Shown: positions 20,317 through 55,058 of the stretch, in pieces
Numbering within the stretch: the stretch's first letter is position 1
How the letters are laid out: each line of letters starts with the position of its first letter
Source of the DNA: Actinobaculum suis
Lineage (GTDB): Bacteria > Actinomycetota > Actinomycetes > Actinomycetales > Actinomycetaceae
Assembly: GCF_900102025.1 (NCBI RefSeq)
Contig: NZ_FNAU01000012.1
Location: 1 to 64,000 of the forward strand
DNA: 64,000 bases
Reading direction: 5' to 3'
Program-made: the position numbers and the translations under genes
The notes under the pieces: model-generated
What the model saw: only the letters and a program-made list of their open reading frames with translations
Told to the model about the DNA's origin: nothing
Database searches by the model: none

Positions 20317-20720
20317 GCGCCTGGATGGTACGTCTACTGCCGGTGATTGCGGCACTGTGCTTTTTGCTTTACCTGTGGTGGCTCTTGCGTTCGCGGCGCC
20401 TGAAGCAAACCTACGTGTATATCTGGTTCATTATCGGCATCGGCTTGCTCGTGATCGCGATCTGGCCGCCCTTGCTGTTCTGGGTTTCTGATCTGCTCGG
20501 TTTCCAGCGTGCCTCCAATATGATTTTGGTAGCCGCCGCTTTTATCCTCCTGGTTATTTCGATCCAACTTTCGGCGGCAGTTTCTGCCCTGCAAGAGGAT
20601 CGCCGCCGACTCACCGAAGAAGTAGCAATCTTGGAAGCACGCTTGGGGCGCGTGGAATCTTCCCTCCCGGCTAGCGAAATCGATCCTTCTGCGCCCGCCG
20701 CTCACCGCGCAGAAAACTAA
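20313..20720 (+). CDS. DUF2304 membrane protein
   Basis: A 135-residue protein with three hydrophobic helices (about 5-25, 35-55 and 65-90) followed by a charged coiled-coil tail (LQEDRRRLTEEVAILEARLG). Size, layout and position directly after a DPM1-like GT2 match DUF2304, whose members seem to accompany polyprenyl-phosphate glycosyltransferases, perhaps as membrane anchors. ATG at 20313 overlaps the GT2 stop as ATGA, with GAGGGA upstream. The final codons plus stop (AGAAAACTAAC) are duplicated immediately downstream with an 11-base period. Confidence 0.82.
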   Translation: MSAWMVRLLPVIAALCFLLYLWWLLRSRRLKQTYVYIWFIIGIGLLVIAIWPPLLFWVSDLLGFQRASNMILVAAAFILLVISIQLSAAVSALQEDRRRLTEEVAILEARLGRVESSLPASEIDPSAPAAHRAEN

Positions 20721-20732
20721 CAGAAAACTAAC
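20711..20732 (+). repeat. 11-bp tandem duplication spanning a stop codon
   Basis: AGAAAACTAAC occurs at 20711-20721 and 20722-20732. The first copy contains the TAA stop of the DUF2304 gene. Confidence 0.9.
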
Positions 20733-20814
20733 CACCAGAGATTGCCCGCGCGCCAACTTGTGCGCGGCCCCGTAGCGTTCGCGGGTCCCTTTCCACATCG
20801 TTGGCGGGCCACTT

Positions 20815-20880
20815 TCCGCGCGCAGATTTTCCGCGTGCGCGCCACTTCCCGCGCGCCACTTCCCGCGCGTCAACGTGTGC
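20815..20880. repeat. 14-bp repeats in the DUF2304 / GT2 gap
   Basis: GCCACTTCCCGCGC and variants are repeated between the converging genes. No gene or T-tailed terminator is visible in this gap. Confidence 0.6.
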
Positions 20881-20884
20881 GCGC

Positions 20885-21775
20885 CTACAAGCGGCCAAAT
20901 GCGTGCCGCACCAAAGTTTTCGCACCGTTTTTATTGCGGTGTTTTATGGCTTGCGGCAGTAGCGCTAAAGCGTGCGCCCGGGAAGTTAGATAGGTGTTTG
21001 CGGCCCGCGCGCTTTTCTTCCACCCGCGTGCTTGCGCTGCTTGCCGCGCCTGGGCGAAGTAGCTTCGTTCCTCCGCGAACCGTGAACCGTCCAGGAGTTT
21101 GACGGAAGAAACTGATTCGTCGTGGCGCCGGTACCGGAAAGTTACTTCCGGAAGGAGCAATAGCTTTCCGCCGCCCATGAGGATATCGATCACGACGCCG
21201 AGGTCCAGTACCACTTCATACCCTTCCCGGAAAGGCGTAGCGGCGATGGTCTCGCGCCGGAAGGTGAGCGAAGGCCAGTACAGCCAATCCCCCACCAAAA
21301 GCCGCGAAGCGGCGTTATCTCCGGTCAGAATTTGCGGTCCGGCAGAAGTATTAGGCCGGAGTTTGTACTTAATCCGATCGGCCAGGTTCCACCGGATTTT
21401 CCCGGCCGAATCAATAGTTTCCACACCCGGCTGGATAATATCGACCTGCGGATTAGTAGCGATTGCCCGCTGCATGGTGGAAACGTAGTTCGGTAAGAGC
21501 ACATCATCGCAACCCATCACCATGAGGTAATCCGAAGTGGCCAGTTCAATAGAACGGCGGAAATTACCTGCCACGCCCAGGTTTTCATCGTTTTCTAGGT
21601 AGGTAATACGCGGATCGTCAAGGGCCGCTAAATACTGCGGTACTTGTGGATCACCGTACCGGTCATCAATCACGGTGAGATGCCAATCCTCACTATCTTG
21701 TGCCAGAACGGATTCCACGGCTTCAAAAAGATATTTCGGCTCTCCCCAGAAGGGCAACATAATGTCAAAACTCAC
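20885..21775 (-). CDS. GT2 glycosyltransferase
   Basis: A 296-residue GT-A enzyme. FDIMLPFWGEPKYLFEAVES, LTVIDDRYGD and YLMVMGCDDVLLPNYV (DXD-like CDD) give the family 2 fold, and the C-terminal part has YRRHDESVSS. It is soluble and probably adds one sugar to a lipid-linked chain in the cytoplasm. GTG at 21775 is preceded by AAGGAG at 6 nt. The gene stands alone between repeat-filled gaps on both sides, so it probably has its own promoter. Donor and acceptor are unknown. Confidence 0.85.
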   Translation of the reverse strand: MSFDIMLPFWGEPKYLFEAVESVLAQDSEDWHLTVIDDRYGDPQVPQYLAALDDPRITYLENDENLGVAGNFRRSIELATSDYLMVMGCDDVLLPNYVSTMQRAIATNPQVDIIQPGVETIDSAGKIRWNLADRIKYKLRPNTSAGPQILTGDNAASRLLVGDWLYWPSLTFRRETIAATPFREGYEVVLDLGVVIDILMGGGKLLLLPEVTFRYRRHDESVSSVKLLDGSRFAEERSYFAQARQAAQARGWKKSARAANTYLTSRAHALALLPQAIKHRNKNGAKTLVRHAFGRL

Positions 21776-21906
21776 GGGCTACTCCTTATTATCGAATTCT
21801 TGCTAAAGAAAATTTCCCAGTTCTCCGCGGAGAAAATTACCCACTTCTCCCTAAGAAAGACGGCGGGCTATCTCAAAGAACCCAGCTGTTTCGAAAGTTC
21901 GCAGGA

Positions 21907-22064
21907 TGTGCCTGCGTTAACAGCGTTTGCGGGTGTGCTTGTGTTAGCACGGCTTGCGGGTGTGGTTGCGCTAGCACGGTTTGCGGGTGTGCCTGCGCTA
22001 GCAGCACTGTTTACTAGTCACGGCCCGGTGCTAGCTACGGCCCGGTACTAGTTACGGCCCGGCC
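21907..22064. repeat. Two adjacent tandem arrays (27-bp x4, then 17-bp x3) reaching into a coding end
   Basis: Units opening TGTGCCTGCGTTAACAGCG recur at 21907, 21934, 21961 and 21988. From 22015 a 17-bp unit follows (TAGTCACGGCCCGGTGC, TAGCTACGGCCCGGTAC, then a third copy). The second/third unit boundary lies at 22048-22049, so the junction contains the stop codon of the glycosyltransferase gene ending at 22048. There are no spacers of equal length and no cas genes, so this is not CRISPR. Confidence 0.85.
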
Positions 22065-22908
22065 GGCTCTGGCTTTGCCGCCGGCGAATTTCCCGCAAGC
22101 AGCGCAACAACATGGCCCGCGAGTGCAGGGCCGCTCCCACTCCGCGCGGTTTGGAGGGAGAAGCATTAGCCGCGTGGAAACGGCGCAATACCGTGCGTTC
22201 CTCCCGATGTTGCATTACTTGGTGCACATTGCCCCACAGTGCAATCCACAGATCGTGCGATTCGGAAAGGAAAGCCGGGAACGGCAAGAGGCCCGCATCC
22301 CGCGCAGTCGCGGTGATTCCCATGGCGCATCCGTAATAAGGCATATTTCCTGCCAAAATACCGGCAATATTACGCGCGCCTCGATTCGAATCGGCTTCCC
22401 GCAAATGCCAATCGGCTTGCCCGTATGGTCCACGCAAAGCTTGCGGCCCACCTAAAGTACCCAAATTGGTAGCGGCTACACGCACCGGAACCACTTCCTG
22501 GGAAACCATGTTCGCGGTTTTCCCGTTCGGCACCTCCACGCCAGGCTGTTCCGCGTTCGGCGCCTGGATAGTTTCTTCCTGTGCTCCGAGCGCCTGCAGC
22601 AGCACCTCTACGTGGTCGGTAGTCCACACATCATCTTGATCAGAAAGGAGTAGATACTGACCGCGAGCTTCACGCAGGGCCTGTTCGAAAGTACGTACGT
22701 ACCCGAAGTTCACGCGCCGGGCAATCACCCGTACGCGTTTATCTTGCTGCGCGTATTCCTCTAAGATTTCAGGCGTGGCATCGGTAGAACAGTCATCGAC
22801 CACCACGATTTCGTCATCCGCATCCAGCTGGCTAAGTATCGAATCCAGCTGTTCGCGCAAAAACTCCGCCCCGTTGTAGGTGGCCATACACACGCTCGTT
22901 CTTGCCAT
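22048..22908 (-). CDS. GT2 glycosyltransferase
   Basis: A 286-residue family 2 enzyme: TSVCMATYNGAEFLREQL, IVVVDDCSTDAT and QYLLLSDQDDVW are the three N-terminal hallmarks, with DQDD as the metal-binding motif. This subtype (rhamnosyl or related transferase of surface glycans) often also shows HDLWIAL, present near the C-terminus. ATG at 22908 is preferred because translation from there begins at the fold. The 45 extra codons upstream would overlap the divergent flippase promoter. The stop codon is part of a 17-bp tandem repeat extending downstream. Middle residues of about 110-150 form an unusual Gln/Ala/Val-rich insertion. Confidence 0.85.
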   Translation of the reverse strand: MARTSVCMATYNGAEFLREQLDSILSQLDADDEIVVVDDCSTDATPEILEEYAQQDKRVRVIARRVNFGYVRTFEQALREARGQYLLLSDQDDVWTTDHVEVLLQALGAQEETIQAPNAEQPGVEVPNGKTANMVSQEVVPVRVAATNLGTLGGPQALRGPYGQADWHLREADSNRGARNIAGILAGNMPYYGCAMGITATARDAGLLPFPAFLSESHDLWIALWGNVHQVMQHREERTVLRRFHAANASPSKPRGVGAALHSRAMLLRCLREIRRRQSQSRPGRN

Positions 22909-23001
22909 ACTGCCCCGATCTTGCGCTCCCTGGCGCGTAAGGTTACTTTCGTCAACATCCAACTCTATACGGGCTTTGCCCATGATTCTCGAAAGGCTCT
23001 C
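22909..23001. promoter_or_regulatory. Divergent promoter region GT2 / flippase
   Basis: The 93-base gap separates two divergent genes. CTCTATACGG near 22970 could hold a rightward -10, but the -35 is unclear. GAAAGG at 22991-22996 is the binding site for the flippase start. Confidence 0.4.
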
Positions 23002-24342
23002 GTGAGTACAGCCTCCCCTTCTCGCCCGCCGGCCACCCCGCACGCTTCCGCTGCTGCGAATACTTCAAATGTGGTGGCGGTTGCGGCCAGTGCGATCGTT
23101 TCTGGTCTCGCTGGTTTCTTCCTCACCGTGGTCTCCGCGCGCGTGCTTAGCTTGCAAGATAACGCGAGTTTTTTGGTTTTTTGGTCGGCGTTTTCCGCTA
23201 TCACCGCGGTGCTTTCCGGGATCCAAAATGAGACGACGCGCGCCGTGCGAGCCGCTCGCCATACCGGCAATGACAGTGTGCCCGCAGGTACGGACCATAC
23301 TGCGCCACACTCGGCGCCAGCTAACGCGGATAGGAAAACCACGCGGGTGTTTGCGGCTATCGGATTGATAGCGGTGCTGGCTGCCTTGGTGGTGGCCGCG
23401 CTGTGGCCTGCCTGGCGCGCAATTTTCGGTGCCCAAGCTCCACTAGAACTCATGGTGCCAACTTTGATGCTCGTCGCTTTCGCTTACCCGGGCCAGCTCG
23501 GGACCGTGGGCGCTTTGGCCGGGCAGAACAATTGGAACCTCTTTGCGGTTCTTTCCGCTGCTGAACCAACGGTGCGGCTGGTGCTGGCCGGAGTGGCCGG
23601 GCTGGCCGGTACCGGACTGGCAGGCCTGTATGTAGGAGTTACCCTGGCCACGCTCACCTGGGCTGGGTTCGGTTGCCTGCAGCCGGTACGCCGAGCTTGG
23701 CGGGCTGAAGCTAGCCTCGATTTCCGCCAATTGCTTTCCCGTATGGCGCAGGCCATGGCCGCTACGGCTTTCTCCGCGGTGCTTATTAACGGCTTCCCGA
23801 TGCTTATGAGCCTGACTAGTGACGCGGCGGTTTATAGCGCGGCCGCTCCCCTAGTTACCGCAGTTTCGGTAACTAGGGCGCCGTTGCTCATGCCGCTCGT
23901 AGCTTTCCAGTCCATGGTGATCGCCGCTTTTGTAGACCGGCCGGAAAAGGTCGGAAGTGCCTTGGTGAAACTACTCGCCGGGATTGCCGGTGTGGCCGCG
24001 ATGGGCGGCGTGGCCGCTTATTTCTTGGGCCCGTGGTTGATGCGTTTCATTTACGGACCGGACTATGTGGTCCCGGGCTTAGTGTTGGGGCTATTGGTAG
24101 CCGCAGCGGCCTGTTTGGCCTTGCTCATGCTGGGCGGGGCAATTGCGCTGGCTTTAGATCTACATCGCTGGAATATGGCCGGCTGGGCCCTCGCCGTCGT
24201 TATTTCTGTAACGCTGATGTTTATGCCAGCCGCTTTAGAGATTCGCACTATTTCTGCGCTCATGATCGGACCTCTGTGCGGTTCTGCCGTGCATCTCTCG
24301 GCGATTTACCGCGCACTACAGGCCCGCGCTCGTGTACGTTAG
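23002..24342 (+). CDS. Wzx-like polysaccharide flippase
   Basis: A 446-residue protein with 12 or more hydrophobic segments in the pattern of the polysaccharide-transporter branch of the MOP superfamily. SGLAGFFLTVVSARVLS at the first helix and a repeating Ala/Val/Leu-rich topology fit Wzx/RfbX proteins, which flip undecaprenyl-diphosphate-linked oligosaccharides outward. Start GTG at 23002 has GAAAGG 5 nt upstream. A 27-codon upstream extension is unsupported. The locus therefore has both an ABC exporter and a flippase, suggesting at least two exported glycans or intermediates. Confidence 0.8.
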   Translation: MSTASPSRPPATPHASAAANTSNVVAVAASAIVSGLAGFFLTVVSARVLSLQDNASFLVFWSAFSAITAVLSGIQNETTRAVRAARHTGNDSVPAGTDHTAPHSAPANADRKTTRVFAAIGLIAVLAALVVAALWPAWRAIFGAQAPLELMVPTLMLVAFAYPGQLGTVGALAGQNNWNLFAVLSAAEPTVRLVLAGVAGLAGTGLAGLYVGVTLATLTWAGFGCLQPVRRAWRAEASLDFRQLLSRMAQAMAATAFSAVLINGFPMLMSLTSDAAVYSAAAPLVTAVSVTRAPLLMPLVAFQSMVIAAFVDRPEKVGSALVKLLAGIAGVAAMGGVAAYFLGPWLMRFIYGPDYVVPGLVLGLLVAAAACLALLMLGGAIALALDLHRWNMAGWALAVVISVTLMFMPAALEIRTISALMIGPLCGSAVHLSAIYRALQARARVR

Positions 24343-24417
24343 AACGTGGTGAAACTTCACGCGACCCGCACTTGCATGCTCGCTCGGCTCAGCCAGGCTT
24401 GGTAGCGTGAAGTATAA

Positions 24418-25494
<1,077 letters not shown>

Positions 25495-25546
25495 AACTTC
25501 CTAGCCTGGCTTCACGGAGGCTAACACGGAGCCGTAAGGCTCTAGC

Positions 25547-25595
25547 AAACTAATGGCCGCGCGAAACACTCAGGGTTTCGCGCGGCCATTAGTTT
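25547..25595. terminator. Bidirectional terminator after rmlB
   Basis: A perfect 21-bp stem (25547-25567 with 25575-25595, core ATGGCCGCGCGAAAC) with a 7-base loop, flanked by AAA on one side and TTT on the other. It lies between rmlB and the converging DUF2142 gene and can serve both. Confidence 0.85.
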
Positions 25596-25796
25596 AACTA
25601 TTCTCTCTCGAACCAAGCATTTAGCGGCTAGCTATCCTCATTTGGTAGCCAGCTACCCAACAGTTCACTATTTCGAGGCAATTTCAGAGCAATTTCGCTG
25701 TAGTTAGCGCTAACTGTCGTGCCGGGAACTTTGTGTTTATCCCCGCGCCTACCGCGTATTTTCTGTTCCTGTTAACTTCGATTCTGCTGAGGTACC
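25596..25796. other. Gap after rmlB with a 14-bp palindrome
   Basis: No gene is seen. AGTTAGCGCTAACT at 25702-25715 is a perfect palindrome of a size typical for a regulator site, but it lies at the 3' side of both neighbouring genes. Confidence 0.5.
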
Positions 25797-27756: not shown

Positions 27757-29154
27757 ATGGAAACTCAGATTGCAATACCCCTCAGAACAGCCACGAGAGC
27801 AGCTGCGCGAACAACTACGAGAAGAACGCGCAGAAGGCGCAGAATCGGCGCCGGATTCACCGCGCTACTTTTGGGAGCATCTACTTTTGGCGCTATGCCT
27901 GCCGCTTCTGCCACCAACCAAGTTGGAACAGTGGCGGCAACTTCTTCCGCCACCCAGGTTGCCTATCCTGCCGCTAGTGCATCGGCCACCGGGCGATCAG
28001 CTCCGGCACTTTTGCCCAATTTGCCGCTCGCGCCTGCGGTGCGGGCTACCAACCAGTATTTTTTCAAAAACTCTTTGACCAGCGGGGTGGCCGACTTTTC
28101 GATCTATTACGGCAACCCGGGCGATACCGTCCTGGTAGGTGATTGGAACGGAGACGGCCGCGATACGCTGGCGGTGCGCCGCGCCAACCAATACTACGTC
28201 AAAAACTCCCTGGCAAGCGGCATAGCAGATCACGAGTTTACTTACGGTAACCCAAACGACTCTGTGCTGGTAGGCGATTGGGACGGCGACGGCGTCGATA
28301 CGCTAGCGGTGCGCCGCGGTAACCAATACTTCGTGAAAAACGACCTCAAAACCGGTGTGGCGGACCAAGTTTTCGTCTACGGTAACCCGGGCGATACCGT
28401 CCTGGTAGGTGATTGGAACGGAGACGGCCGCGATACGCTGGCGGTGCGCCGCGCCAACAAGTACTACGTAAAGAACAACCTAGAAACCGGAATCGCCGAC
28501 CACGAGTTTACTTACGGTAACCCAAACGACTCTGTGCTGGTAGGCGATTGGGACGGCGACGGCGTCGATACGCTAGCGGTGCGCCGCGGTAACCAATATT
28601 TCGTGAAAAACGACCTCAAAACCGGTATAGCGGAAACGGTTTTCGCTTACGGAATCAATATCGACGCCGTTTACGCCGGCGATTGGAACGGGGACGGCCG
28701 CGATACGCTCATGGTGCGGCGGATGGAAGCAGAACCGGAATCGGCAGGTATACCGGTGATGGTCTACGGCACTTTGCGTACCGGGCAGGAAGCAGATTTC
28801 GTGGTGAATGGTACCTATACCTCGAAGCGAGTTGCCCGGGCACCGTGGGCGGAACTGTGGGTGACCAACGGTAATCCGTTGCGCGGGGTGTGGCCGTGGG
28901 CAGTACCTGGAAATCACGGGCTGGTTGGAGAAGTGCTCACCTTCGGGCCCGCGAACTACAACCAGATGATCCGCAAACTGGACCGTTGGGAAGGTTTTGT
29001 ACCGGGGCGTTCCCTCAACCGGATGAATTACACGCGCGAAATCGTGGATACGAATCTGGGGCCCGCCTATGTTTACGTGGCCACGCCTTGGCGGCAGGCA
29101 CAGGCCCGCGCCCACGGCGTGCTCCTCCCCGATGGAGATTTCACCCGTTACTAA
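27757..29154 (+). CDS. Secreted FG-GAP-like repeat protein with C-terminal gamma-glutamylcyclotransferase domain
   Basis: A 465-residue protein. Residues 1-52 form a long arginine-rich N-region and hydrophobic core ending MPAASA, a plausible signal peptide with cleavage near 52. Residues 99-322 are five 45-residue repeats, each with GDW(N/D)GDG.DTL.VRR, resembling calcium-binding FG-GAP/VCBS blades. Residues of about 333-465 match the gamma-glutamylcyclotransferase/AIG2 fold: substrate loop VYGTLRTGQ (Y337) and LDRWEGF, whose E412 aligns with the catalytic glutamate of the family. The enzyme family releases 5-oxoproline from gamma-glutamyl amines or peptides. An extracellular version suggests a wall or peptide substrate. 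The start is uncertain (no clear binding site). Upstream in-frame codons overlap the divergent gene. Confidence 0.75.
   Translation: METQIAIPLRTATRAAARTTTRRTRRRRRIGAGFTALLLGASTFGAMPAASATNQVGTVAATSSATQVAYPAASASATGRSAPALLPNLPLAPAVRATNQYFFKNSLTSGVADFSIYYGNPGDTVLVGDWNGDGRDTLAVRRANQYYVKNSLASGIADHEFTYGNPNDSVLVGDWDGDGVDTLAVRRGNQYFVKNDLKTGVADQVFVYGNPGDTVLVGDWNGDGRDTLAVRRANKYYVKNNLETGIADHEFTYGNPNDSVLVGDWDGDGVDTLAVRRGNQYFVKNDLKTGIAETVFAYGINIDAVYAGDWNGDGRDTLMVRRMEAEPESAGIPVMVYGTLRTGQEADFVVNGTYTSKRVARAPWAELWVTNGNPLRGVWPWAVPGNHGLVGEVLTFGPANYNQMIRKLDRWEGFVPGRSLNRMNYTREIVDTNLGPAYVYVATPWRQAQARAHGVLLPDGDFTRY
28111..28650 (+). repeat. 270-bp higher-order tandem repeat (two 135-bp blades)
   Basis: Long stretches at 28111 onward recur almost identically at 28381 onward, and those at 28231 onward recur at 28501 onward. 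The offset is 270 bases, or two 45-residue blades. Near-identity at the DNA level points to recent duplication or gene conversion. Confidence 0.9.
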
Positions 29155-29322: not shown

Positions 29323-30189
29323 ATGACACACGCACCCACAGCTAGCAATAACTCGCAAGGCACCCGGCAACGCGGCCTCGCCCCGCACCGCACTACATTG
29401 TTTTGGAAACCTTCCTTCCAGAACCCTTCCTCACGGAAACCTTCCTCACGGAAACCTTCCTTCCGCAAAGCTTTCCGCCACGCGTTCTTCCAAAAAGCTG
29501 TGGCAGCAGGCGCGGCCTTCGGTTTAGCTACCTTTGGGCTGTGCGGGCTGAGTGGCTGTAGCAAGAGCGCCCAGGCCGCAGATCCATATCCTGATCCGGT
29601 ACCGGTAGCGAGCGCCGCACCTGGTCGCGAGGCCGTACCCGGTGCCGACGCCGCCCCCGCAGCTTCCACGCAAGCTTCCGCTTCTCCTGCTTCCGCGGGG
29701 GAAGAACCGAGCACGGTACCAACTTCTCCGGAAGGGGATGTGGAGGCTACCGTGGGCACTCCGATCGGACTTGCCGCAGACAGTGGGAATACCTCGGTGT
29801 TTGAGCTGACTGTCAACAGTATTACGCAGCAGACCACTTGCCCTTCGAAACTAGACGGCAGCGCGGTACATCCCAGTAAAGATAATTTCCTCGTAATTGA
29901 TCTGAGCGCACAGATGAGCCCCGAATACGCGGCGAAAGATCCCAAGTATCCCTTCCTCACTTTGGACCGTGACGTTTGGTACATTACGAATCCGGCCGGG
30001 GTGATCGAGGAGGGCACGCTGAGCGTGAAGAGCTACGAATGCTTCGGCGATGCGGAAGCAATCCAGCCCTTCGTAAATCCCGGCGAAGCGGTTGCGGGAA
30101 AGCTTGCCCTCGATACCGATACGGAACACGGCTATCTTCACTACAATCCATTCGGAGTGCCCGGTTCGGGATGGCGCTGGGCGTTCTAG
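29323..30189 (+). CDS. Lipoprotein with DUF4352-like domain
   Basis: A 288-residue protein. The lipobox LSGC ends at Cys79, preceded by a hydrophobic stretch (about 58-75) and an unusually long basic cytoplasmic N-region containing KPSSR/KPSFR repeats (15-base period). After Cys79 comes a Pro/Ala/Ser-rich linker to about 145, then a domain with VFELTVNSITQQ and DNFLVIDLSAQM resembling the immunoprotective-extracellular/DUF4352 fold. Two cysteines (TTCPS and SYECF) may form a disulphide. The function is unknown. It is probably anchored to the outer face of the membrane. GAGAGG lies 10 nt before the ATG. The stop lies in an 18-bp imperfect duplication. Confidence 0.72.
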   Translation: MTHAPTASNNSQGTRQRGLAPHRTTLFWKPSFQNPSSRKPSSRKPSFRKAFRHAFFQKAVAAGAAFGLATFGLCGLSGCSKSAQAADPYPDPVPVASAAPGREAVPGADAAPAASTQASASPASAGEEPSTVPTSPEGDVEATVGTPIGLAADSGNTSVFELTVNSITQQTTCPSKLDGSAVHPSKDNFLVIDLSAQMSPEYAAKDPKYPFLTLDRDVWYITNPAGVIEEGTLSVKSYECFGDAEAIQPFVNPGEAVAGKLALDTDTEHGYLHYNPFGVPGSGWRWAF

Positions 30190-30221
30190 CTAGTGGCCCG
30201 TTGCTAACTAGTGACCGACCG
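30186..30221 (+). repeat. 18-bp imperfect duplication spanning the lipoprotein stop
   Basis: CTAGCTAGTGGCCCGTTG is followed directly by CTAACTAGTGACCGACCG. The TAG stop at 30187-30189 lies in the first copy. Confidence 0.6.
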
Positions 30222-31636: not shown

Positions 31637-31640
31637 ACCG

Positions 31641-31671
31641 CCCTATGCTTTCCCCTGCCCTATGCTTTCCC
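31641..31671. repeat. 17-bp duplication spanning a glycosyltransferase stop
   Basis: CCCTATGCTTTCCC occurs at 31641 and 31658. On the minus strand the second position contains the terminal codons and TAG stop of the glycosyltransferase ending at 31660. Confidence 0.85.
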
Positions 31672-32496
31672 GCGAGTGAGAATACTTGCCCGGGCGCGCA
31701 AACCCGTGTGCAAAGCGGCGCGCAACGGAGCATAGAGCGGGCCGCGGTAAACCTCATCGAGGTAGTGCGCGGCGGAACGGTGATGTTCGCGGATCATGCG
31801 CGCGGGGCGTTCCCGCCAAGAAGTGCCTTGCTCATGGGAGATATGTGCCTGCGGCAAGAACACTGACTGCCAGCCGGCCCGGGCGAGTGCTTCCCCCAGT
31901 GCGACGTCTTCAAAGAACATGAAATAGGCGTCGTCAAAACCACCGATCTGGGCGAAAGCTTCCCGGCGAAGCAAGAGGCAGGCACCGCTCAACCAGTCCA
32001 CGGTATGGGCATGGCGGGTGTCCGCATTTTCTCGGTAGGCACGGCTCCACGGGTTATTAGGCCACACGTCTGCAAAAAGGGCGTGCCCGATGCCCGAACC
32101 TAGGCGTGGGAAGCGCCGGGCGGAAGGATAAATCTCGCCTTCTGGAGTTTCGATGCGCGGGCCGAAAGCGCCACCTTTGGGCCACAAGCGCGCCCCGGAA
32201 ATCATGGCGTCCCCACTTCCGGGGGCAAATACTACGTCTGGGTTTACTACGAACAGCCACCGGCCGGTAAACCCGGCAGCCCCCAGATTCGCGGCTCGCC
32301 CATAGCCGAGGTTATCGCCCGGGCAAATGTATTGCCCGCCATGGCGCCGCGCCAGCGCGAAAGCGTCCTCATTGAACCCGGAGTTATCCACAATCACCAG
32401 TTCGTAGGGCGTGCTAAAAGCACCGGGGAGCGATTCCACAAAGTCTGCAAGTTGTGTACCAGAGTTATAGGCCACGGTTACCACTCGTATATCCAC
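31660..32496 (-). CDS. GT2 rhamnosyltransferase, WbbL-like
   Basis: A 278-residue GT-A enzyme: VVTVAYNSGTQLADFVES, ELVIVDNSG, NLGYGRAANLG and WLFVVNPDVVF (NPD motif) followed by VDWLSGACLLLRREAF and FFEDVALGEALARAGW. This pattern is typical of WbbL-like rhamnosyltransferases, which in mycobacteria make the linkage unit between peptidoglycan and wall polysaccharide. A linkage role here would fit the adjacent LCP genes but is inference. GTG at 32496 has no Shine-Dalgarno site. TAGGCT lies 6 nt upstream. Confidence 0.87.
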   Translation of the reverse strand: MDIRVVTVAYNSGTQLADFVESLPGAFSTPYELVIVDNSGFNEDAFALARRHGGQYICPGDNLGYGRAANLGAAGFTGRWLFVVNPDVVFAPGSGDAMISGARLWPKGGAFGPRIETPEGEIYPSARRFPRLGSGIGHALFADVWPNNPWSRAYRENADTRHAHTVDWLSGACLLLRREAFAQIGGFDDAYFMFFEDVALGEALARAGWQSVFLPQAHISHEQGTSWRERPARMIREHHRSAAHYLDEVYRGPLYAPLRAALHTGLRARASILTRGKA

Positions 32497-36148: not shown

Positions 36149-36646
36149 GTGGCAGTTAGCGCAGGTCTCCAGAAACTGGTCGATAAGTTCCTTAAAGGCC
36201 AGTCTTTTCGTGAGTGGTTCATCGAGTTTTTGCAGTTTTGCACGGTTGGGCTCGCTTCCTACGTGGTAGATGTAGGGCTCTTCAACCTGCTCGCGCACGC
36301 CGGTATCGTGCAGCTTCCCGGTGATCCGTCCATGACGGCGAAAACTATTTCCGTCAGCGTTTCCGTAATTTTTTCTTGGGTGGCCAACCGTTTGTGGACT
36401 TTCCGGAAGGTGCGCACTAACAATAAACCACGCGAGTTCACCCAATTTGCGCTCGTGAATATTGGCGGGATGCTGATTGCCTTGGTTTGCCTGGCATTTT
36501 CGCGTTACGTGCTGGGCTTACGTTCTGCCCTGGCCGATAATATTTCCGCCAATATCGTTGGCCTGGTGCTTGGCACTGCCTTCCGGTACGTCATGTATAA
36601 AACCGTGGTCTTCGCGGCGCCGGCCACGCCCGCCACAGATAAATAA
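36149..36646 (+). CDS. gtrA: GtrA-family membrane protein
   Basis: A 165-residue protein with four hydrophobic helices. QFCTVGLASYVVDVGLFNLL, SWVANRLWTFR and RYVMYKTVVF are the characteristic GtrA/GtcA blocks. GtrA proteins are thought to flip polyprenyl-phosphate-linked monosaccharides to the outside, completing the three-part system formed with a GtrB-like loader and a GT-C transferase, both present upstream. The start is GTG at 36149, possibly leaderless. The last codons plus TAA (GCCACAGATAAATAACGCC) are duplicated directly downstream with a 27-base period. Confidence 0.9.
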   Translation: MAVSAGLQKLVDKFLKGQSFREWFIEFLQFCTVGLASYVVDVGLFNLLAHAGIVQLPGDPSMTAKTISVSVSVIFSWVANRLWTFRKVRTNNKPREFTQFALVNIGGMLIALVCLAFSRYVLGLRSALADNISANIVGLVLGTAFRYVMYKTVVFAAPATPATDK

Positions 36647-36688
36647 CGCCCCGCACCTGCCACAGATCAGTACCGCCCCTCAGTACCG
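36632..36688 (+). repeat. 27-bp duplication spanning the gtrA stop
   Basis: GCCACAGATAAATAACGCCC at 36632 recurs in diverged form as GCCACAGATCAGTACCGCCC at 36659. The first copy contains the TAA stop. Confidence 0.8.
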
Positions 36689-43330: not shown

Positions 43331-43356
43331 CGCAAAAGAAAGCCGGCGACATGGGT

Positions 43357-43435
43357 GCTCTAGCCCGCCGGCATTGTGGACGCTATAGCCCGCCGGCGTC
43401 GCGTGAGCGTTATAGCTCGCCGGCGTCGTGGGCGC
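43357..43435. repeat. 25-27 bp tandem repeat containing the ferredoxin stop
   Basis: Units GCTCTAGCCCGCCGGCATTG, GCTATAGCCCGCCGGCGTCG and GTTATAGCTCGCCGGCGTCG start at 43357, 43382 and 43409. The last contains the final codons and the stop (complement at 43410-43412) of the minus-strand ferredoxin gene. Confidence 0.85.
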
Positions 43436-43766
43436 GGACCATTTCCGCGTTCGCGTCTGCCGGCAGGTTGGCAATATAGGGCGGGTCGAAATCTTGCGGC
43501 CCGACTTCTTGAGCCCCACCCGGGCTGCCCAAATCAGTGAAGAATTCGGCGCTGAGCTCTGCAAATACATTCCACTCTGCGGGGAGGTCATCTTCGTAAT
43601 AGATTGCCTCCGTGGGGCACACAGGTTCGCACGCCCCGCAATCCACGCATTCTTCCGGATTAATATAGAGCATTCGGTTACCTTCGTAGATGCAATCCAC
43701 CGGGCACTCATCGACGCATGCTTTGTCTTTGACGTCGAGGCACGGCATCGCAATTACATAAGCCAC
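43410..43766 (-). CDS. fdxA: 7Fe ferredoxin, FdxA type
   Basis: A 118-residue electron carrier with one 3Fe-4S and one 4Fe-4S cluster. Cysteines 9, 17, 21, 25, 40, 43, 46 and 50 are in the spacing of actinobacterial FdxA (ACVDECPVDCIYEG, ECVDCGACEPVCP). The length is slightly above the usual 105-110 because of the AHDAGEL tail. GTG at 43766 is preceded by AAGGGA at about 9 nt. It stands alone. The C-terminal codons plus stop are duplicated twice downstream, each later copy carrying its own stop-like TAG. Confidence 0.95.
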   Translation of the reverse strand: MAYVIAMPCLDVKDKACVDECPVDCIYEGNRMLYINPEECVDCGACEPVCPTEAIYYEDDLPAEWNVFAELSAEFFTDLGSPGGAQEVGPQDFDPPYIANLPADANAEMVRAHDAGEL

Positions 43767-47524: not shown

Positions 47525-47532
47525 GCCAATCC

Positions 47533-49551
47533 CTACTTCTTCGCGGCACGCTTGCGCCGGCCAGCCAGCTTGCCGCGTTCCACCGCGGATAGTTCGACCT
47601 TGCGGATGCGGATCTTCTCCGGAGTTACCTCAATGCATTCGTCATTGGAAGCGAACTCAATGGATTCTTCGAGGGTCATTTGCCGGGGTGCCTGCAAGAC
47701 TTCCATCACGTCCGCCGTCGCCGAACGCATATTCGTCATTTCCTTGGCCCGCACCACGTTCACGTCCATATCCTCATCGCGCGGGTTTTCGCCCACCACT
47801 TGGCCTTCATACACTTCATCGCCCGGGGAAACGAAGAAAGTACCGCGATCCTCCAACCGCAACAGAGCATAAGACGTAACTTGACCGGCTCGGTCGGCCA
47901 CCAAAGAACCGGTGGCGCGCGATTCGATCTCCCCCATCCACGGCGCATACCCATCAGAAATGGAAGCCGCAATACCGGTACCGCGAGTTTGGGTGAGGAA
48001 CTGGGAACGGAAACCGATCATGCCGCGCGCCGGAACCACGAATTCCATCCGCACCCAGCCGCTCCCATGATTCGCCATGGTTTCCATGCGTCCCTTGCGA
48101 GCCGCCATCAACTGGGTAACGGTACCCAGGAATTCTTCGGGTACATCAATCGTGGTCCGCTCCATCGGCTCATGGAGTTTACCGTCGATCATGCGAGTCA
48201 CCACTTGCGGTTTACCCACGGTCAGCTCGAAATTCTCCCGCCGCATCTGTTCCACCAAAATCGCCAGCGCGAGTTCGCCGCGGTCTTGCACTTCCCACAC
48301 GTCCGGCCGGTCGGTAGGCAAAACCCGAATCGAAACATTACCCACGGTTTCTTGCTCCAGGCGGGCCTTTACTTGCCCAGCGGTGAGCTTGTGGCCCTTC
48401 CCGCCCTGGCCAGCCAGAGGCGAAGTATTAATACCAATGGTCATGGAAATTGCGGGCGGATCCACGTGGATGGGCGGGAGCGGGCGCGGATCTTCCAGAT
48501 CCACCAAAGAATCGCCGATCGTAATCTCATCAATACCAGCCACGGCCACAATATCGCCCGCATAAGCGCTCTGTGCCGGGCGACGCTCCAACCCTTCGGT
48601 TACCAATAGCTCAGAAATCCGCACGGAAGAAATCTGCGGGGCGGTACCGTTGGTGCCGGCTGCCGCAGCTTTACTTTCCGCGTGGTGTTCTTCCGCGCTA
48701 GTTTGTTCTTCAATACCGTCCACAATTGCCTGCGGGTGGCGTACCCACCCCACCGTGGTGCCCTTTTCCAGCCGCCCGGAGTAGATACGCAACAATGCGA
48801 GCCGGCCCAAGAAGGGCGAGGCGTCCAGATTGGTTACCTGCGCGGCAAAAGGCGCGTTTTCGTCAAATTCGGGAGCCGGAATGTATTCCAAAATCGCCTT
48901 GAACAGCGGTTCGAGATCGGGGTTATCGGGAAGTTCGCCATCTGCCGGCCGCTGCAGCGACGCATAACCCGCCTTCGCCGAAGCATAAATCACGGGAACG
49001 TCCAAAAGTTTTTCCAGGGCTTCTTCATCCGGATTGTCCAAATCCGTAGCCAGCTGTAAAAGCAGGTCTGCCGTTTCCTCTTCCACTGCCGCAATCCGCG
49101 CGTCCGGCCGATCCACCTTGTTGATCACCGTCACCACCGGCAAGTGCGCTTCCAAGGCCTTGCGGAGTACAAACCGCGTTTGTGGAAGCGGCCCTTCCGA
49201 AGCATCCACCAGGAGTACAACGCCGTCGACCATCGACAAACCGCGTTCCACTTCTCCAGAAAAATCCGCGTGCCCGGGCGTATCGACCACGTTAATCGTT
49301 ACCCCGTCCGGTGCCCCAAATTCGCTAGCGGAAGGCCCTCGGTAATGGATCGCCGTGTTTTTAGCCAGAATCGTAATTCCTTTTTCACGTTCCAGCTCCC
49401 CGGAATCCATAACGCGCGTACCGGTTTTTTCCGGGTTCGCGCGATCCCCCAGAGCCCCGCCCTGCCACAGCATGGCGTCCACTAGGGTGGTCTTACCGTG
49501 GTCAACATGCGCCACGATCGCGACATTACGAAGATCTTTACGAGTGCTCAA
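47533..49551 (-). CDS. typA: Ribosome-binding translational GTPase TypA/BipA
   Basis: A 672-residue elongation-factor-like GTPase. G1 AHVDHGKTT (14-22), G3 DTPGHADF, G4 NKVD and G5 SAKAG are intact, followed by EF-G-like domains III and V and the TypA-specific C-terminal domain ([20 protein letters not shown]). It acts in ribosome assembly and stress adaptation. TTG at 49551 is the start: [17 protein letters not shown] fits the family and AAAGG lies 7 nt upstream. The longer open frame upstream is repeat-derived. An Ala/Glu-rich insertion of about 30 residues (around [13 protein letters not shown]) lies in domain II, making it longer than usual. Confidence 0.96.
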
Positions 49552-49904
49552 AAATGTGCCTTTCTTGCTTCCTCTAGCTTCCACTAGAAGCGGCGCGGTG
49601 CCGAAGGGAAGCGCCCAGGCCATGTTACTCGTATGCGGCAAGCCCCGGGCGGCGAGTGTTAGCAGTGTTACTGCCATACGCGTTACGCAGTTACAGCCGT
49701 ACGCGTTACGCAACCTGATTTTCCGCTCCCGGCACGTAAAAATCCCGTACACGAAAGCTCGGTACGTAAAAGTAGCGGGCGCGGGATACGGTTCCGGGCA
49801 GGCGCGCAAGATGCGGCGGTTCCGGGCAGGCGCGCTATATGCGGTGGTTCCGGGCGGGCGCGCTAGCCGCAGGTACGACGCCGTACCGCGCGCCGGTAGC
49901 ACTT
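49552..49904. repeat. 353-base gap upstream of typA with two repeat families
   Basis: TACGCGTTACGCA is duplicated near 49677-49710. A 28-bp unit built on GGTTCCGGGCAGGCGCGC occurs three times between about 49791 and 49875. No gene is supported, although frames here stay open on the minus strand. The typA promoter must lie here. Confidence 0.7.
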
Positions 49905-50513
49905 TTACAGCGGTAGTGCCTGCAGGGAAAGGGCGCTAGTCCACCAGATTCCGAAACCCGCGATGGCCAGGCCGGCAAGGATGCCGGCAATGCGGTCCCA
50001 GGCCGGGCTGCTGGTAATGCGCTGGCCGGCAGAATTACGCGTAAGTTCGTGGAAGGTATCGCGCAGATCTTCGATGAGGTTGAATGCCGACCGGGTGGAG
50101 GTAGTGATATCGATGTGGCCAGAGGCGGTGACGGGAACGTCTTCTCCGGTGGCTTTGAAACGCGCCCCCACGCCAGTGGCGCCGAAGCAGCGCGAGCGGA
50201 AAGACCTCCCGCGCACATCCGTTACGGTGAGGCCAAAACGAGAATCGACGCTGCTGATTTGGGAAAAAGGTATCCGTACCGTGCGGAAAGTATTCCGGAA
50301 ACTCACCGCTTGGTTGTCTATCGTCACTGCTGGCAACCAAAATCCGGCCCAGCCCAAAACGGCCATGCCGATACCGAAAATAGCGGTAGAAGGCACGTAT
50401 TTCCAGCCCGAACCGGAAAAGATCTGTGCCACCACGGCCAAGATTCCCACCGCGATGAAACCAATAGCGGCCGCTTTTTGCGTTGCTGAGCGAAGACGAT
50501 AGGTGGAGGACAT
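49905..50513 (-). CDS. Membrane protein with bacterial PH-like domain
   Basis: A 202-residue protein with two N-terminal helices (about 13-33 and 41-61), a beta-rich middle (VTIDNQAVSFRNTFRTVRIPFSQISSVDS) typical of small bacterial PH/YdbT-like domains, and a C-terminal helix (about 178-198). The function is unknown. ATG at 50513 has GAAGGA 8 nt upstream. It lies downstream of the opp locus on the same strand but behind a strong hairpin, so it is probably expressed separately. Confidence 0.7.
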   Translation of the reverse strand: MSSTYRLRSATQKAAAIGFIAVGILAVVAQIFSGSGWKYVPSTAIFGIGMAVLGWAGFWLPAVTIDNQAVSFRNTFRTVRIPFSQISSVDSRFGLTVTDVRGRSFRSRCFGATGVGARFKATGEDVPVTASGHIDITTSTRSAFNLIEDLRDTFHELTRNSAGQRITSSPAWDRIAGILAGLAIAGFGIWWTSALSLQALPL

Positions 50514-50591
50514 GCCCGTAATCCTTCCACAGCCGGCCCGCCGCTGACTACCACTACATGCCGAAGGCCACCACCTTCTTTCCCACAGGCG

Positions 50592-50643
50592 AGTGCCCCG
50601 GCGGGTCGTGATCTTTTGGTCACTGCCCGCCGGGGCACTCGTT
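50592..50643 (-). terminator. Two-tier hairpin downstream of oppA1
   Basis: A perfect 16-bp outer stem (CGAGTGCCCCGGCGGG at 50592-50607, complement at 50628-50643) encloses an inner GTGA/TCAC arm. No T tract follows. A closely similar structure lies downstream of oppA2 at 52901-52950. Confidence 0.65.
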
Positions 50644-50680
50644 CAGGTTATTAGATTCGCGTTTCTAAGAGCGCTCTAGG

Positions 50681-50744
50681 CTTTACTTGCGCAAGGCGTT
50701 ACTTCCGCAAGGCTTTACTTGCGCAAGGTGTTACTTGCCTTGCT
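50681..50744. repeat. 16-bp x4 tandem repeat containing the oppA1 stop
   Basis: GGCTTTACTTGCGCAA and variants occupy 50681, 50697, 50713 and 50729. The copy at 50729 contains the end of the oppA1 coding sequence and its TAA (complement at 50731-50733). Confidence 0.9.
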
Positions 50745-52476
50745 TCGAGCCGTCCCATTCGGGAGCGTTCTCTACGAAACCAATCTTTTCCTTGAAATTA
50801 GTACGGAAGGAACCGGTGGAGTAGTTCGCCAGTTCCCGCTTCATGGCCGACTGCGAAGGGCCATTCAGTACCGGAATGAGGCCGTACTCCTTGAAAGCTT
50901 CCTTTTCGAGCTCATTAGCCTGCTTGATCTGTTCGTCCGGATCAGAGACCTTCGCCAATGCGTCGATCTTGGCATCCAGTTCCGGCGTACCGGTACCAGA
51001 GGTGTTAAGGCCGGAGAAGAGCGGAGCATCCGGCGAGTAGTACATCTGGCCGAAGTAAGCCACACCGAAGGGATCGCTCGAACGGAACCCGGAGAAGTTC
51101 ATATCGAAGTCCTTGTTCTTCAACGTGGACGAGAACTCCGAAGAAGCACGCGAATCGATCTGCAGATCAATACCCAGGTCCTTCATCTGCTGCTGGATCA
51201 CCGCGGCCATAGCCTTGGTGGTCTGGTTATCACCGAAGATAACGTAACGGGCCGAAAGGGGCTTGCCATCCTTTTCAAAGACGCCGTTAGCATTCTTCGT
51301 GTAGCCAGCCTCCTCGAGGACCTTCTTCGCCCCTTCCGGATCGTGCTTCACAACCGCGCTGAAGTTATCTTCGTAACCGGGCTGATTTGAGTAATACACC
51401 AAGGAGCCCGGCAGTTCTTCCGTGTAGCCCGTGCCCTGGAAGCGGACGTCCGCAATCGCGGAACGATCCACTGCCATAGATACGGCCTCCCGCACCTTCG
51501 GATCCTTGAAAGCATCCGATTCCGAGTTCATGAAGAGCATGAAATTCGCCGGCGTCATCGAGGTGTAGATATTGATGCCGCTCATCGGTTCCACCGCGGC
51601 CAGGTTTTCAGCGGTAGACACACCAGCTACTTCGATTTCCGAATTGGTGAAGGCGTTGATAGTGGCCTGGGATTCCATGGCCCGGAAAACTACCTTTTCA
51701 AGCTTGGGCTTTTCACCCCACCACTTCTCATTCGGTACGAAGGAGATCGTACCGTTCTGGAAGCTGTACTCTTCCACCTTGTACGGGCCCGCGCCCCACT
51801 CCGGCTTGATTTCGTTCTTGTAAGCGTTATTGAAAACTTCCGGGCTATCTACTGCGGGGTGCAGGATATCGTTGAACAGACCTTCCCACCACGGGTAGGC
51901 ACCATCGAAGGTAACGACGACGTCTTTATCCGTATCACCCTTTTCCACGGACTTGATCTGCGAATAGCCATCCGTGCCATTGACGATGTATTCCTTGTTG
52001 GAGCCGTTATTCGACTTCCAAGTGGTCTGGAAAGCCTTGTAATCGATCGGCGTATCGTCGTTAAACTTCGCCTTCTCGTTGATCTTGTACTTCACAACCG
52101 TGTTTCCATCAACGACTTCCGAAGTAGCAGATTCCAGATAATTCGGGTTTGGAGCAAAGTCACCATTTGCTTCAAAACCGCTGATCTGCGGGTTGTACCA
52201 TTGCCATACGTCACGCGTATCAGAGGTCATTTCCTGCTGGAAGACGTTCTGTTGCGAGGTCAGCTCACCCAGCGGGAGTCGCAGTACGCCACCCTCCTTG
52301 AGAGAGTCATAGTCGGCCTTGAGATACTGCACGCCATCAGCATTTACGATCTCAACGCCGCCGGTGCCTTTACCTGCACCTTCGGCGCCATTCGAGCTTC
52401 CCGATCCGCCTCCCGAGCAGGCGGTAAGGACCAGGGTTACCGCAGTCAGGGCCCCAATCAATCCTGTCTTTTTCAT
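50731..52476 (-). CDS. oppA: Oligopeptide ABC transporter substrate-binding lipoprotein 1
   Basis: A 581-residue family 5 solute-binding protein. Lipobox VLTAC places the lipidated cysteine at residue 20 (LTACSGGGSG), then a Ser/Gly linker and the binding protein from about residue 50. WGAGPYKVEEYSFQNGTISF and NEKWWGEKPKLEKVVFRA are typical of OppA/DppA. ATG at 52476 is chosen because AAGGGA lies 6 nt upstream. An ATG five codons earlier lacks a site. It has the same length as, and very high similarity to, its tandem neighbour oppA2, pointing to gene duplication. A 17-bp palindrome lies 176 bases upstream. Confidence 0.93.
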   Translation of the reverse strand: MKKTGLIGALTAVTLVLTACSGGGSGSSNGAEGAGKGTGGVEIVNADGVQYLKADYDSLKEGGVLRLPLGELTSQQNVFQQEMTSDTRDVWQWYNPQISGFEANGDFAPNPNYLESATSEVVDGNTVVKYKINEKAKFNDDTPIDYKAFQTTWKSNNGSNKEYIVNGTDGYSQIKSVEKGDTDKDVVVTFDGAYPWWEGLFNDILHPAVDSPEVFNNAYKNEIKPEWGAGPYKVEEYSFQNGTISFVPNEKWWGEKPKLEKVVFRAMESQATINAFTNSEIEVAGVSTAENLAAVEPMSGINIYTSMTPANFMLFMNSESDAFKDPKVREAVSMAVDRSAIADVRFQGTGYTEELPGSLVYYSNQPGYEDNFSAVVKHDPEGAKKVLEEAGYTKNANGVFEKDGKPLSARYVIFGDNQTTKAMAAVIQQQMKDLGIDLQIDSRASSEFSSTLKNKDFDMNFSGFRSSDPFGVAYFGQMYYSPDAPLFSGLNTSGTGTPELDAKIDALAKVSDPDEQIKQANELEKEAFKEYGLIPVLNGPSQSAMKRELANYSTGSFRTNFKEKIGFVENAPEWDGSKQGK

Positions 52477-52595
52477 TCCGATTCCCTTCATGAAAGTTTT
52501 GGGTCTCAGCCAATAACGCGGGTTTGCAGCGCGCTACCTGTGACTTGAGGGGAATATTCCCAGCCACTTAAATGTCCATTCAGTAAGTATTAGGT

Positions 52596-52604
52596 ATAGG
52601 TGAG
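52596..52604 (-). promoter_or_regulatory. Block shared by both oppA upstream regions (CTCACCTAT)
   Basis: CTCACCTAT on the minus strand recurs upstream of oppA2 at 54847-54855. The distance to the palindrome is nearly equal in both (48 and 49 bases). It could be part of the promoter or a second regulator site. Confidence 0.5.
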
Positions 52605-52651
52605 CCCCATTGAGGGAATACGTTACCTGTAGTTTACTTTCTCATCTCTTT

Positions 52652-52668
52652 TGTCCACATACTGGACA
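52652..52668 (-). promoter_or_regulatory. Operator-like palindrome upstream of oppA1
   Basis: TGTCCACATACTGGACA is a perfect inverted repeat with arms TGTCCA/TGGACA and a 5-base centre. A near-identical site lies at the same relative place upstream of oppA2. Confidence 0.65.
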
Positions 52669-52900
52669 CGTATCTTTAAGATTTCGGGGAAAATCGACAC
52701 CTACCTGCGGCTGCGGTACGGGAATGGCTACGGTATGAGGGAGCCTGCGGTTCGTGAGTAGTCACGTGTCCGAACAGCTACAGCGTGAAGGAACCTACGG
52801 TTCACGAGTGGCTACCGTATGGGAACCGGTCACGGTATGGGAACGAATATTATTCGTGGGCAGGTATTGCACGAGAGCAGCTTTTATTAGGCGGGTATGG

Positions 52901-52950
52901 CGGTGCCCCAGCGGTCGTGATAATTACGTATCACTACCGCCGGGGCACCG
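52901..52950 (-). terminator. Two-tier hairpin downstream of oppA2
   Basis: The outer 15-bp stem (CGGTGCCCCAGCGGT at 52901-52915 with 52936-52950, one mismatch) encloses the inner GTGATA/TATCAC stem. It shares GTGCCCC.GCGG and the GTGA/TCAC inner arm with the oppA1 hairpin. Confidence 0.65.
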
Positions 52951-52993
52951 GGGTTTTATTGCTTTATGGCTGCCTATAAGGCTTGCTTAGCAA

Positions 52994-54739
52994 TTACTTT
53001 TGCTGCGTGCCATTCCATTCCGGAGCGTTTTCCACATAGCCAACGTTCTCGACGAAATTGGTGCGGAAGGAACCGGTGGAGAAGTTCGCGAGATCGCGCT
53101 TCATTGCCGACTGCGCCGGGCCATTGAGAACCGGGAGCAGGCCGTACTGTGCCAAAGCTTCCTTTTCGAGCGCATTGCCCTGCTTGATCTGTTCATTCGG
53201 ATCAGAAATCTTGGCCAAAGCGTCGATCTTAGCGTCCAGTTCAGGTGTACCGGTGCCAGACTTGTTCAGACCAGAGAAGAGCGGAGCATCCGGCGAGTAG
53301 AAGATCTGGCCGAAGTAAGCCACACCGAAGGGATCGGTGGAGCTAAAGCCAGAGAACACCATGTCGAAGTCCTTGTTCTTCATCGTGGAAGAGAAGTCCG
53401 CAGAAGCGCGCGAATCGATCTGCAAATCGATGCCGAGATCCTTCATCTGCTGCTGAACCACTGTGGCCATAGCCTTGGTGGTCTGGTTATCACCGAAAAT
53501 AACGTAACGGGCGGAAAGAGGCTTGCCATCCTTCTCGAAGACGCCGTTAGCATTCTTCGTGTAGCCGGCTTCCTCGAGGACCTTCTTCGCCCCTTCCGGA
53601 TCGTGCTTTACCACAGCGCTGAAGTTATCCTCATAGCCCGGCTGGGTAGAGAACTGAATGAAGGAACCGGGAAGATCTTCCTTGTAGCCGGTGCCCTGGA
53701 AGCGTACGTCCGCAATCGCGGAACGGTCCACAGCCATAGATACGGCCTCCCGCACCTTCGGATCCTTGAAAGCATCCGAAGCCGAGTTCAGCGTAAGCAT
53801 GTAGTTAGCCGGAAGCATCGAGGTGTAGATATTGATGTCGCTCATCGGTTCCACTGCGGCCAAGTTTTCAGCGGTAGAAACCCCGGCCACGTCGATTTCC
53901 GAATTGGTGAAGGCGTTAATGGTGGCCTGGGAATCCATGGCCCGGAAAGTCACCTTGTCCAGCTTCGGCTTTTCGCCCCACCACTTCTCATTCGGTACGA
54001 AGGAGATCGTACCGTTCTGGAAGCTGTACTCTTCCACCTTGTACGGGCCCGCGCCCCACTCCGGCTTCACATTGTTCTTGTAAGCATTGTTGAATACATC
54101 GGGCGTATTCACGGCCGGGTGCAAAACCCTGTTGAACAGACCCTGCCACCACGGATAAGCCCCATCGAAGGTAACGACGACGTCTTGATCCGTATCGCCC
54201 TTTTCCACGGACTTAATCTGCGAGTAACCATCGGTACCGTTCACGATGAAGCCTTCATCGGTACCGTTATTGTCCTTCCAGGTGGTCTGGAATGCCTGAT
54301 AATCGATCGGTGTATCGTCGTTGAACTTCGCCTTCGGGTTGAGCTTGTACTTCACAACCGTGTTTCCGTCAACAACTTCCGAAGTAGCAGATTCGAGATA
54401 GTTCGGGTTCGGAGCAAATTCGCCATTTGCTTCAAAACCGCTAATCTGCGGGTTGTACCAATCCCATAGCGTATCGGTATCTGCCGTCATTTCCTGCTGG
54501 AAACGATTCTGTTGCGCGGTGAGTTCGCCGAGCGGGAGGCGTAGTGCGCCACCCTGCTTGAGGTCCGCGTAGTTCGCCTTGAGGTACTGCACCCCATCTG
54601 CGTTTACCACTTCAGCTGCGCCCTTGGCATCCTTATTTCCGCCATCGGCAGCCTTGGAGCTTCCCGATCCACCACCAGAGCAGGCGGCCAGGACCACGGA
54701 CACTGCGGCGAGCGCCCCAATGAATCCAGTTTTCTTCAT
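52994..54739 (-). CDS. oppA: Oligopeptide ABC transporter substrate-binding lipoprotein 2
   Basis: A 581-residue family 5 binding protein with lipobox VLAAC (Cys20). Long stretches are identical to oppA1 (for example ARYVIFGDNQTTKAMA and DLQIDSRAS), while differences cluster in the ligand-facing middle (EGFIVNGTDGYS versus KEYIVNGTDGYS; FIQFSTQPGYED versus LVYYSNQPGYED). This suggests a recent tandem duplication with diverging peptide preference. ATG at 54739 has AAGGGA 6 nt upstream; 19 further in-frame codons upstream are unsupported. It is the first gene after the permease/ATPase operon, separated by a hairpin and its own operator-like palindrome. Confidence 0.93.
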   Translation of the reverse strand: MKKTGFIGALAAVSVVLAACSGGGSGSSKAADGGNKDAKGAAEVVNADGVQYLKANYADLKQGGALRLPLGELTAQQNRFQQEMTADTDTLWDWYNPQISGFEANGEFAPNPNYLESATSEVVDGNTVVKYKLNPKAKFNDDTPIDYQAFQTTWKDNNGTDEGFIVNGTDGYSQIKSVEKGDTDQDVVVTFDGAYPWWQGLFNRVLHPAVNTPDVFNNAYKNNVKPEWGAGPYKVEEYSFQNGTISFVPNEKWWGEKPKLDKVTFRAMDSQATINAFTNSEIDVAGVSTAENLAAVEPMSDINIYTSMLPANYMLTLNSASDAFKDPKVREAVSMAVDRSAIADVRFQGTGYKEDLPGSFIQFSTQPGYEDNFSAVVKHDPEGAKKVLEEAGYTKNANGVFEKDGKPLSARYVIFGDNQTTKAMATVVQQQMKDLGIDLQIDSRASADFSSTMKNKDFDMVFSGFSSTDPFGVAYFGQIFYSPDAPLFSGLNKSGTGTPELDAKIDALAKISDPNEQIKQGNALEKEALAQYGLLPVLNGPAQSAMKRDLANFSTGSFRTNFVENVGYVENAPEWNGTQQK

Positions 54740-54846
54740 TCCGATTCCCTTCATAAGTGCCATGTACACCCCGCGGACCCACCCGCGGATTCCCATGGCC
54801 TAACGCTCGAACGATCGCCGGGCGTCAGAATGTTTAAACAATAAGC

Positions 54847-54855
54847 ATAGGTGAG
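54847..54855 (-). promoter_or_regulatory. Block shared by both oppA upstream regions (CTCACCTAT)
   Basis: The second copy of the conserved CTCACCTAT word, upstream of oppA2, in the same position relative to the palindrome as for oppA1. Confidence 0.5.
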
Positions 54856-54903
54856 TGCCCAGTGCGGGCCAGATCGCTTAAAGTTCATTTTCTCACTTTA
54901 AAA

Positions 54904-54920
54904 TGCCCATATATTGGACA
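54904..54920 (-). promoter_or_regulatory. Operator-like palindrome upstream of oppA2
   Basis: TGCCCATATATTGGACA has arms TGCCCA/TGGACA (one mismatch) and a 5-base centre. It abuts the hairpin at 54921-54960. Confidence 0.6.
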
Positions 54921-54960
54921 GCGGCTACGCGGACCTTCGAGAGATAATCCGCGTAGCCGC
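54921..54960 (-). terminator. Hairpin between oppDF and oppA2
   Basis: A perfect 13-bp stem (GCGGCTACGCGGA at 54921-54933, complement at 54948-54960). No T tract follows. It may end or attenuate the oppBCDF transcript before oppA2. Confidence 0.6.
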
Positions 54961-54964
54961 ATCT

Positions 54965-55058
54965 TTGCGAGCTTGCTAGTTTGTGAGCTTACTAGTTTGC
55001 CAGCTTGCTACTTTACGTAGCTTATTTACGTAGCTTACTACTTTGCGAGCCTGCTACT
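54965..55058. repeat. 16-bp tandem repeats running into the oppDF stop
   Basis: TTGCGAGCTTGCTAGT-type units start at 54965, 54981, 54997 and 55043, with two shorter or longer variants between. The last unit contains the oppDF stop (complement at 55054-55056). Confidence 0.85.

Follow-up and report, generated by a model that had tools for sequence, protein, structure and literature searches.

Tandem micro-duplications across stop codons in Actinobaculum suis: placement, frame and probable origin

At a series of gene ends in Actinobaculum suis the stop codon lies within a short tandem repeat that continues into the 3′ spacer. Are such stop codons marked by a signal that has been selected, or are they places where duplications are simply tolerated? 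We conclude that these are very probably ordinary short tandem duplications, generated by a genome-wide process and filtered by purifying selection, and that the arrays over stops do not appear to be a special signal.

Stop-covering arrays in the window

The window, i.e. the whole stretch of 64,000 nucleotides that was analysed, is part of one contig of a 2.2-Mb Actinomycetaceae genome (38 contigs, 58% G+C). An earlier note on this DNA named eight genes ending in tandem repeats, and a repeat lies over the stop at all eight, six found by programs and two by eye. TRF (score at least 40, period 7 to 45) places five arrays of the window over stops. An exact 11-bp duplication (20710–20732, forward strand; also found by ungapped search) covers the stop of the DUF2304 gene (20343–20720, Pfam DUF2304). 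Three copies of a 17-bp unit (22012–22062, reverse strand; TRF and ungapped search) cover that of a GT2 gene (22048–22887, Pfam GT2). The ferredoxin gene (43410–43766, Pfam Fer4) ends in a 25-bp array with indels (43342–43435, reverse strand). Two further arrays on the reverse strand have 16-bp units, one of about four copies at oppA1 (50731–52491; array 50678–50738, found also by ungapped search), and one of about six copies with indels at oppDF (55054–57003; array 54963–55059). The sixth, a 17-bp duplication (31640–31671, reverse strand) over the stop of a WbbL-like glycosyltransferase gene (31660–32496, Pfam GT2-like), was found by the ungapped lag search. The two seen by eye are weak cases on the forward strand: an 18-bp duplication (30186–30221) at a putative lipoprotein gene (29500–30189), and a 27-bp duplication (36632–36679) at gtrA (36149–36646, Pfam GtrA). 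Each consists of two imperfect copies below the thresholds of the programs, and so carries no statistic. A Pfam scan of the 229-aa putative lipoprotein gave no match.

The neighbouring paralog of oppA1 (52994–54796), 84% identical to it, has a similar end, and no array was seen there. Two other repeats in the window were observed. Inside the gene at 27895–29154, TRF finds a 270-bp unit (28108–28709) present in two copies that match at 93%, with a 135-bp sub-period; both periods are multiples of three. Another gene stops at 13316, and a 24/48-bp array (13318–13419) begins directly behind it.

Placement and reading frame across the genome

The analysis was extended to 966 kb (44%) of the genome, taken as stretches of more than 3 kb. 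The discovery part, which includes the window, spans 588 kb and 425 called genes; a separate second part spans 378 kb and 245 called genes. The gene calls come from a purpose-written dicodon-usage caller rather than from a published annotation. An ungapped lag search at a strict threshold gave 191 arrays in the 588 kb against 5 in one block shuffle, and at a slightly looser threshold 363 in the 966 kb against 4 in shuffled sequence; the latter comparison indicates that the arrays are not due to chance. The ungapped search misses arrays bearing indels, such as those of oppDF and ferredoxin, and these are covered by TRF. Since arrays in coding sequence keep the reading frame and the copies have diverged, an assembly artefact is an unlikely source. 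A single dispersed motif was also rejected: the arrays of one sample show an enrichment of words like GCTTGC and CTTGCG, and those of the other do not.

By TRF the stop lies inside an array in 74 of 670 called genes (46/425 in the discovery part and 28/245 in the second), compared with 11 of 395 in Actinobaculum massiliense FC3, the comparison species within the genus (one genome per species). The excess of arrays at stops over other intergenic positions, whose absence the earlier note had taken as refutation, is not seen in this 44% sample of the genome. TRF coverage in the 44% sample is about 16% at the stop (15.6% and 16.0% in the two separate parts) and 17–23% downstream to +100, falling to 2% at 20–40 bases inside the gene; start codons have about 2% in both parts. 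The ungapped search on the 280 stops with a spacer of at least 60 bp gave the same ordering, with 8.3% at the stop codon, 9.2–10.5% from +0 to +60 and 0.07% from −30 to −20. Coverage in that search was 0.9% at start codons and below 2% over the approximately 30 bp upstream of them. Restricting the analysis to genes with an A. massiliense reciprocal best hit leaves the shape of the profile as it is, and A. massiliense itself shows this shape with TRF coverage about one quarter as high. Thus stops are unprotected rather than enriched relative to the nearby spacer, while starts and the region just upstream are protected.

The reading frame gives a corresponding division. At the strict threshold, 125 of the 132 arrays in coding sequence have a period divisible by three, against 76 of the 192 in spacers and 11 of the 35 over stops, i.e. 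arrays inside genes keep the frame and those outside have no frame preference. The junctions are informative about how the duplications may arise: among 50 exact two-copy duplications, 19 are flanked by a partial third copy of at least 4 bp where 0.9 would be expected, a junction microhomology such as slippage between short repeats would give.

These observations are consistent with a process resembling replication slippage between short direct repeats, acting across the genome and producing duplications mostly of 9–25-bp units, upon which purifying selection would then act, so that those retained within genes keep the frame. Arrays are common in 3′ spacers, run over stops and end within about one unit inside the gene, and are rare at starts and for about 30 bp upstream. 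In 26 of 30 listed arrays, by manual count, the start lies at most one unit and one base ahead of the end of the stop. Duplication of a segment containing the stop would leave the first copy, and hence the protein, unchanged, and would therefore be tolerated like that of spacer DNA.

A borderline sign against the neutral reading comes from the placement. Because an array that includes the stop can start only within about one unit inside the gene, the observed numbers were compared with uniform placement over protein-neutral positions. This comparison was confined to gene ends with gaps of at least 60 bp, and to arrays that start no further than +150 and lie away from the next start. Stop-including arrays numbered 29 of 129 with the strict set (17.9 expected, P = 0.005) and 37 of 185 with the lenient set (25.4 expected, P = 0.012), an excess of 1.45–1.62-fold, with four strict subsets spanning 0.77 to 2.22-fold. 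A copy held by coding sequence would be expected to decay more slowly, and in a simple survival simulation in which the in-gene copy changes more slowly the detectable life was 1.2–1.4-fold longer. Slow decay of the coding copy would thus probably explain most of the small excess in stop arrays, leaving a small remainder.

Another point against it comes from G007, a 74% G+C Actinomycetaceae genome, in which the share of stop arrays is lower than the 35 against 192 spacer arrays of the window's genome. The dicodon caller is poor on G007 (0 stop and 43 spacer arrays), so a caller based on G+C by frame was written for it, and this gave 2 stop and 64 spacer arrays; the low share may reflect the small numbers.

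Selected functions and known repeats

The array might have come first in the spacer, with a stop-loss or frameshift mutation then extending the gene into it. As a general route this is contradicted by the ends of orthologous proteins, and we consider it very improbable. We used 257 reciprocal pairs with A. massiliense, dropping 40 below 45% identity. Among the 18 array genes with a reciprocal best hit at 45% identity or above, 12 have tails equal within one residue; two are longer than the ortholog by at least two residues, a class that includes 25.6% of 199 array-free genes, and four, a point against the neutral reading, are shorter by at least seven. In a protein 92.7% identical between the species both end in EVANQGK, so that the C-terminus encoded by the repeat is identical and there is no extension; in other array genes the repeat-encoded end is retained with one or two residue changes. 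In favour of capture, the GT2 protein (gene 22048–22887) extends 8 aa past its A. massiliense ortholog and one further protein is 2 aa longer. On account of these 8 aa the GT2 array may have captured the stop, and a minority of such cases is possible. The strict discovery set also has few array starts at +5 to +15, at 2 of 284 ends; the second set, with 4 of 176, does not share this shortage.

A second possibility, raised in the earlier note, is that the repeats are selected as backup termination, whereby additional downstream stops would halt ribosomes after readthrough or slippage. In the 30 nt behind the stop, further stops are indeed somewhat commoner in array genes, because the stop itself is repeated: their frequencies in frames 0, 1 and 2 are 0.43, 0.48 and 0.57 in 44 array genes, compared with 0.33, 0.35 and 0.34 in 384 genes without arrays. 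Readthrough requires frame 0, yet this is the frame that rises least, and within 60 nt its rise is close to that of frame 1 and smaller than that of frame 2. The periods of stop arrays have no in-frame preference, and coverage at stops does not exceed that of the spacer. Between copies, conservation is slightly higher for the stop word than for other words, although this is borderline (40 arrays, paired P = 0.05), and in a control on spacer arrays 31 of 400 draws reached the same value. Our arrays resemble fail-safe stops in that there are extra stops downstream of the primary one; they differ in lacking in-frame preference, and Ho and Hurst report no compelling evidence that additional stops are selected in eubacteria (PMC6764699). 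Backup termination is therefore unsupported and, like capture, very improbable.

The least probable of the three is the other function that had been suggested, a 3′ RNA feature, with the repeats serving as terminators or as hairpins that protect mRNA ends: small inverted repeats can be seen by eye in some units (e.g. CTTGCGCAAG at oppA1), but by inspection the units vary from gene to gene, the median folding z-score is −0.13 at the 43 ends with a stop array and −0.57 at 150 array-free ends sampled from 330 (P = 0.16), TTTTT occurs at 2% of stop-array ends against 6% of array-free ends, and Rfam gave no match at the gathering threshold in the 64-kb window.

The earlier note had left open whether the repeats are neutral or selected. 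The coverage profile, frame statistics, conserved C-termini and junction microhomology favour the neutral reading, while the selected one finds no in-frame, folding or T-run signal, and the tempting claim of backup stop signals falls away.

Short tandem repeats at gene borders have been seen in Actinomycetota, in the MIRU and other VNTR loci of mycobacteria. MIRUs are one dispersed family with longer units, whereas the units here look unrelated to one another by inspection. The earlier note knew of no description of stop-covering arrays. This holds for Actinobaculum, where a literature search with most subscription papers outside its reach found none; repeats over ORF ends are, however, described for Borg elements (PMC9879509) and Beggiatoaceae (PMC4679880). 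In the archaeal Borg elements the tandem repeats run over ORF ends and are plentiful in the element but almost missing from its host; unit lengths within ORFs are all multiples of three, compared with only 14–38% of intergenic ones (PMC9879509). The likeness extends to head-to-tail units of similar size with flanking partial repeats. By contrast, the Borg repeats are perfect and A-enriched (PMC9879509), while the copies in this 58% G+C bacterial chromosome are often diverged. The direct repeats of Beggiatoaceae likewise lie in spacers with some over stops, and 13 sets of the TAACTGA repeat overlap the stop of the upstream gene and are considered tolerated at ORF ends (PMC4679880). That repeat is one fixed heptamer mostly facing starts (PMC4679880), whereas here the units vary and starts are avoided.

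Array abundance and spacer length

Arrays are formed or retained in this lineage at several times the level of its sister species, and the spacers are longer. By ungapped search, arrays that fall mostly in non-coding DNA have densities of 1.16 and 0.93 per kb, compared with 0.10 for A. massiliense, a difference of approximately tenfold. TRF coverage at gene ends is four- to fivefold above that of A. massiliense, the TRF totals being 619 arrays in 966 kb and 122 in 520 kb respectively. Ungapped arrays whose period is not a multiple of three occur at 15.5 per 100 kb here and at 0 to 3.3 in eleven other samples; the exceptions are G007 (13.3 per 100 kb, from 60 kb) and G013 (10.0, from 40 kb). 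We note that G007, which is G+C-rich, is a second Actinomycetaceae genome in which short tandem arrays are abundant, though few lie over stops.

Taken together, 154 syntenic spacers amount to 25,011 bp here, 66% more than the 15,072 bp of A. massiliense (P = 2e-6), and those exceeding 60 bp in A. massiliense are longer here by a median of 71.5 bp (82 pairs). Arrays per kb of spacer number 2.27 between convergent genes, 1.27 between codirectional and 0.91 between divergent genes. Duplications that contain a stop are nearly free while those containing a start are not, so that 3′ spacers can grow by micro-duplication. We suggest tentatively that a raised rate of short duplication inflates the intergenic DNA of this lineage, mainly 3′ of genes and against the deletion pressure usual in bacteria, and that its source could be replication or flap processing altered at some point beyond the seven families checked.

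Those seven were searched in the window's genome and no lost repair or replication function was found among them: the PolA 5′ nuclease domain, NucS, SbcD, XseA, RNase HII, DnaE and RadA were each matched above cut-off. Their presence leaves altered expression, or other genes, as possibilities. NucS, which is present here, acts in mismatch repair, and a species with several-fold the array density of its sister would offer a natural case in which to study the control of short duplications in NucS-carrying bacteria. Among 423 columns that are otherwise invariant, DnaE1 departs from that of seven relatives at 5, the changes lying between residues 488 and 1017, and thus outside what we take to be the extent of the N-terminal PHP region.
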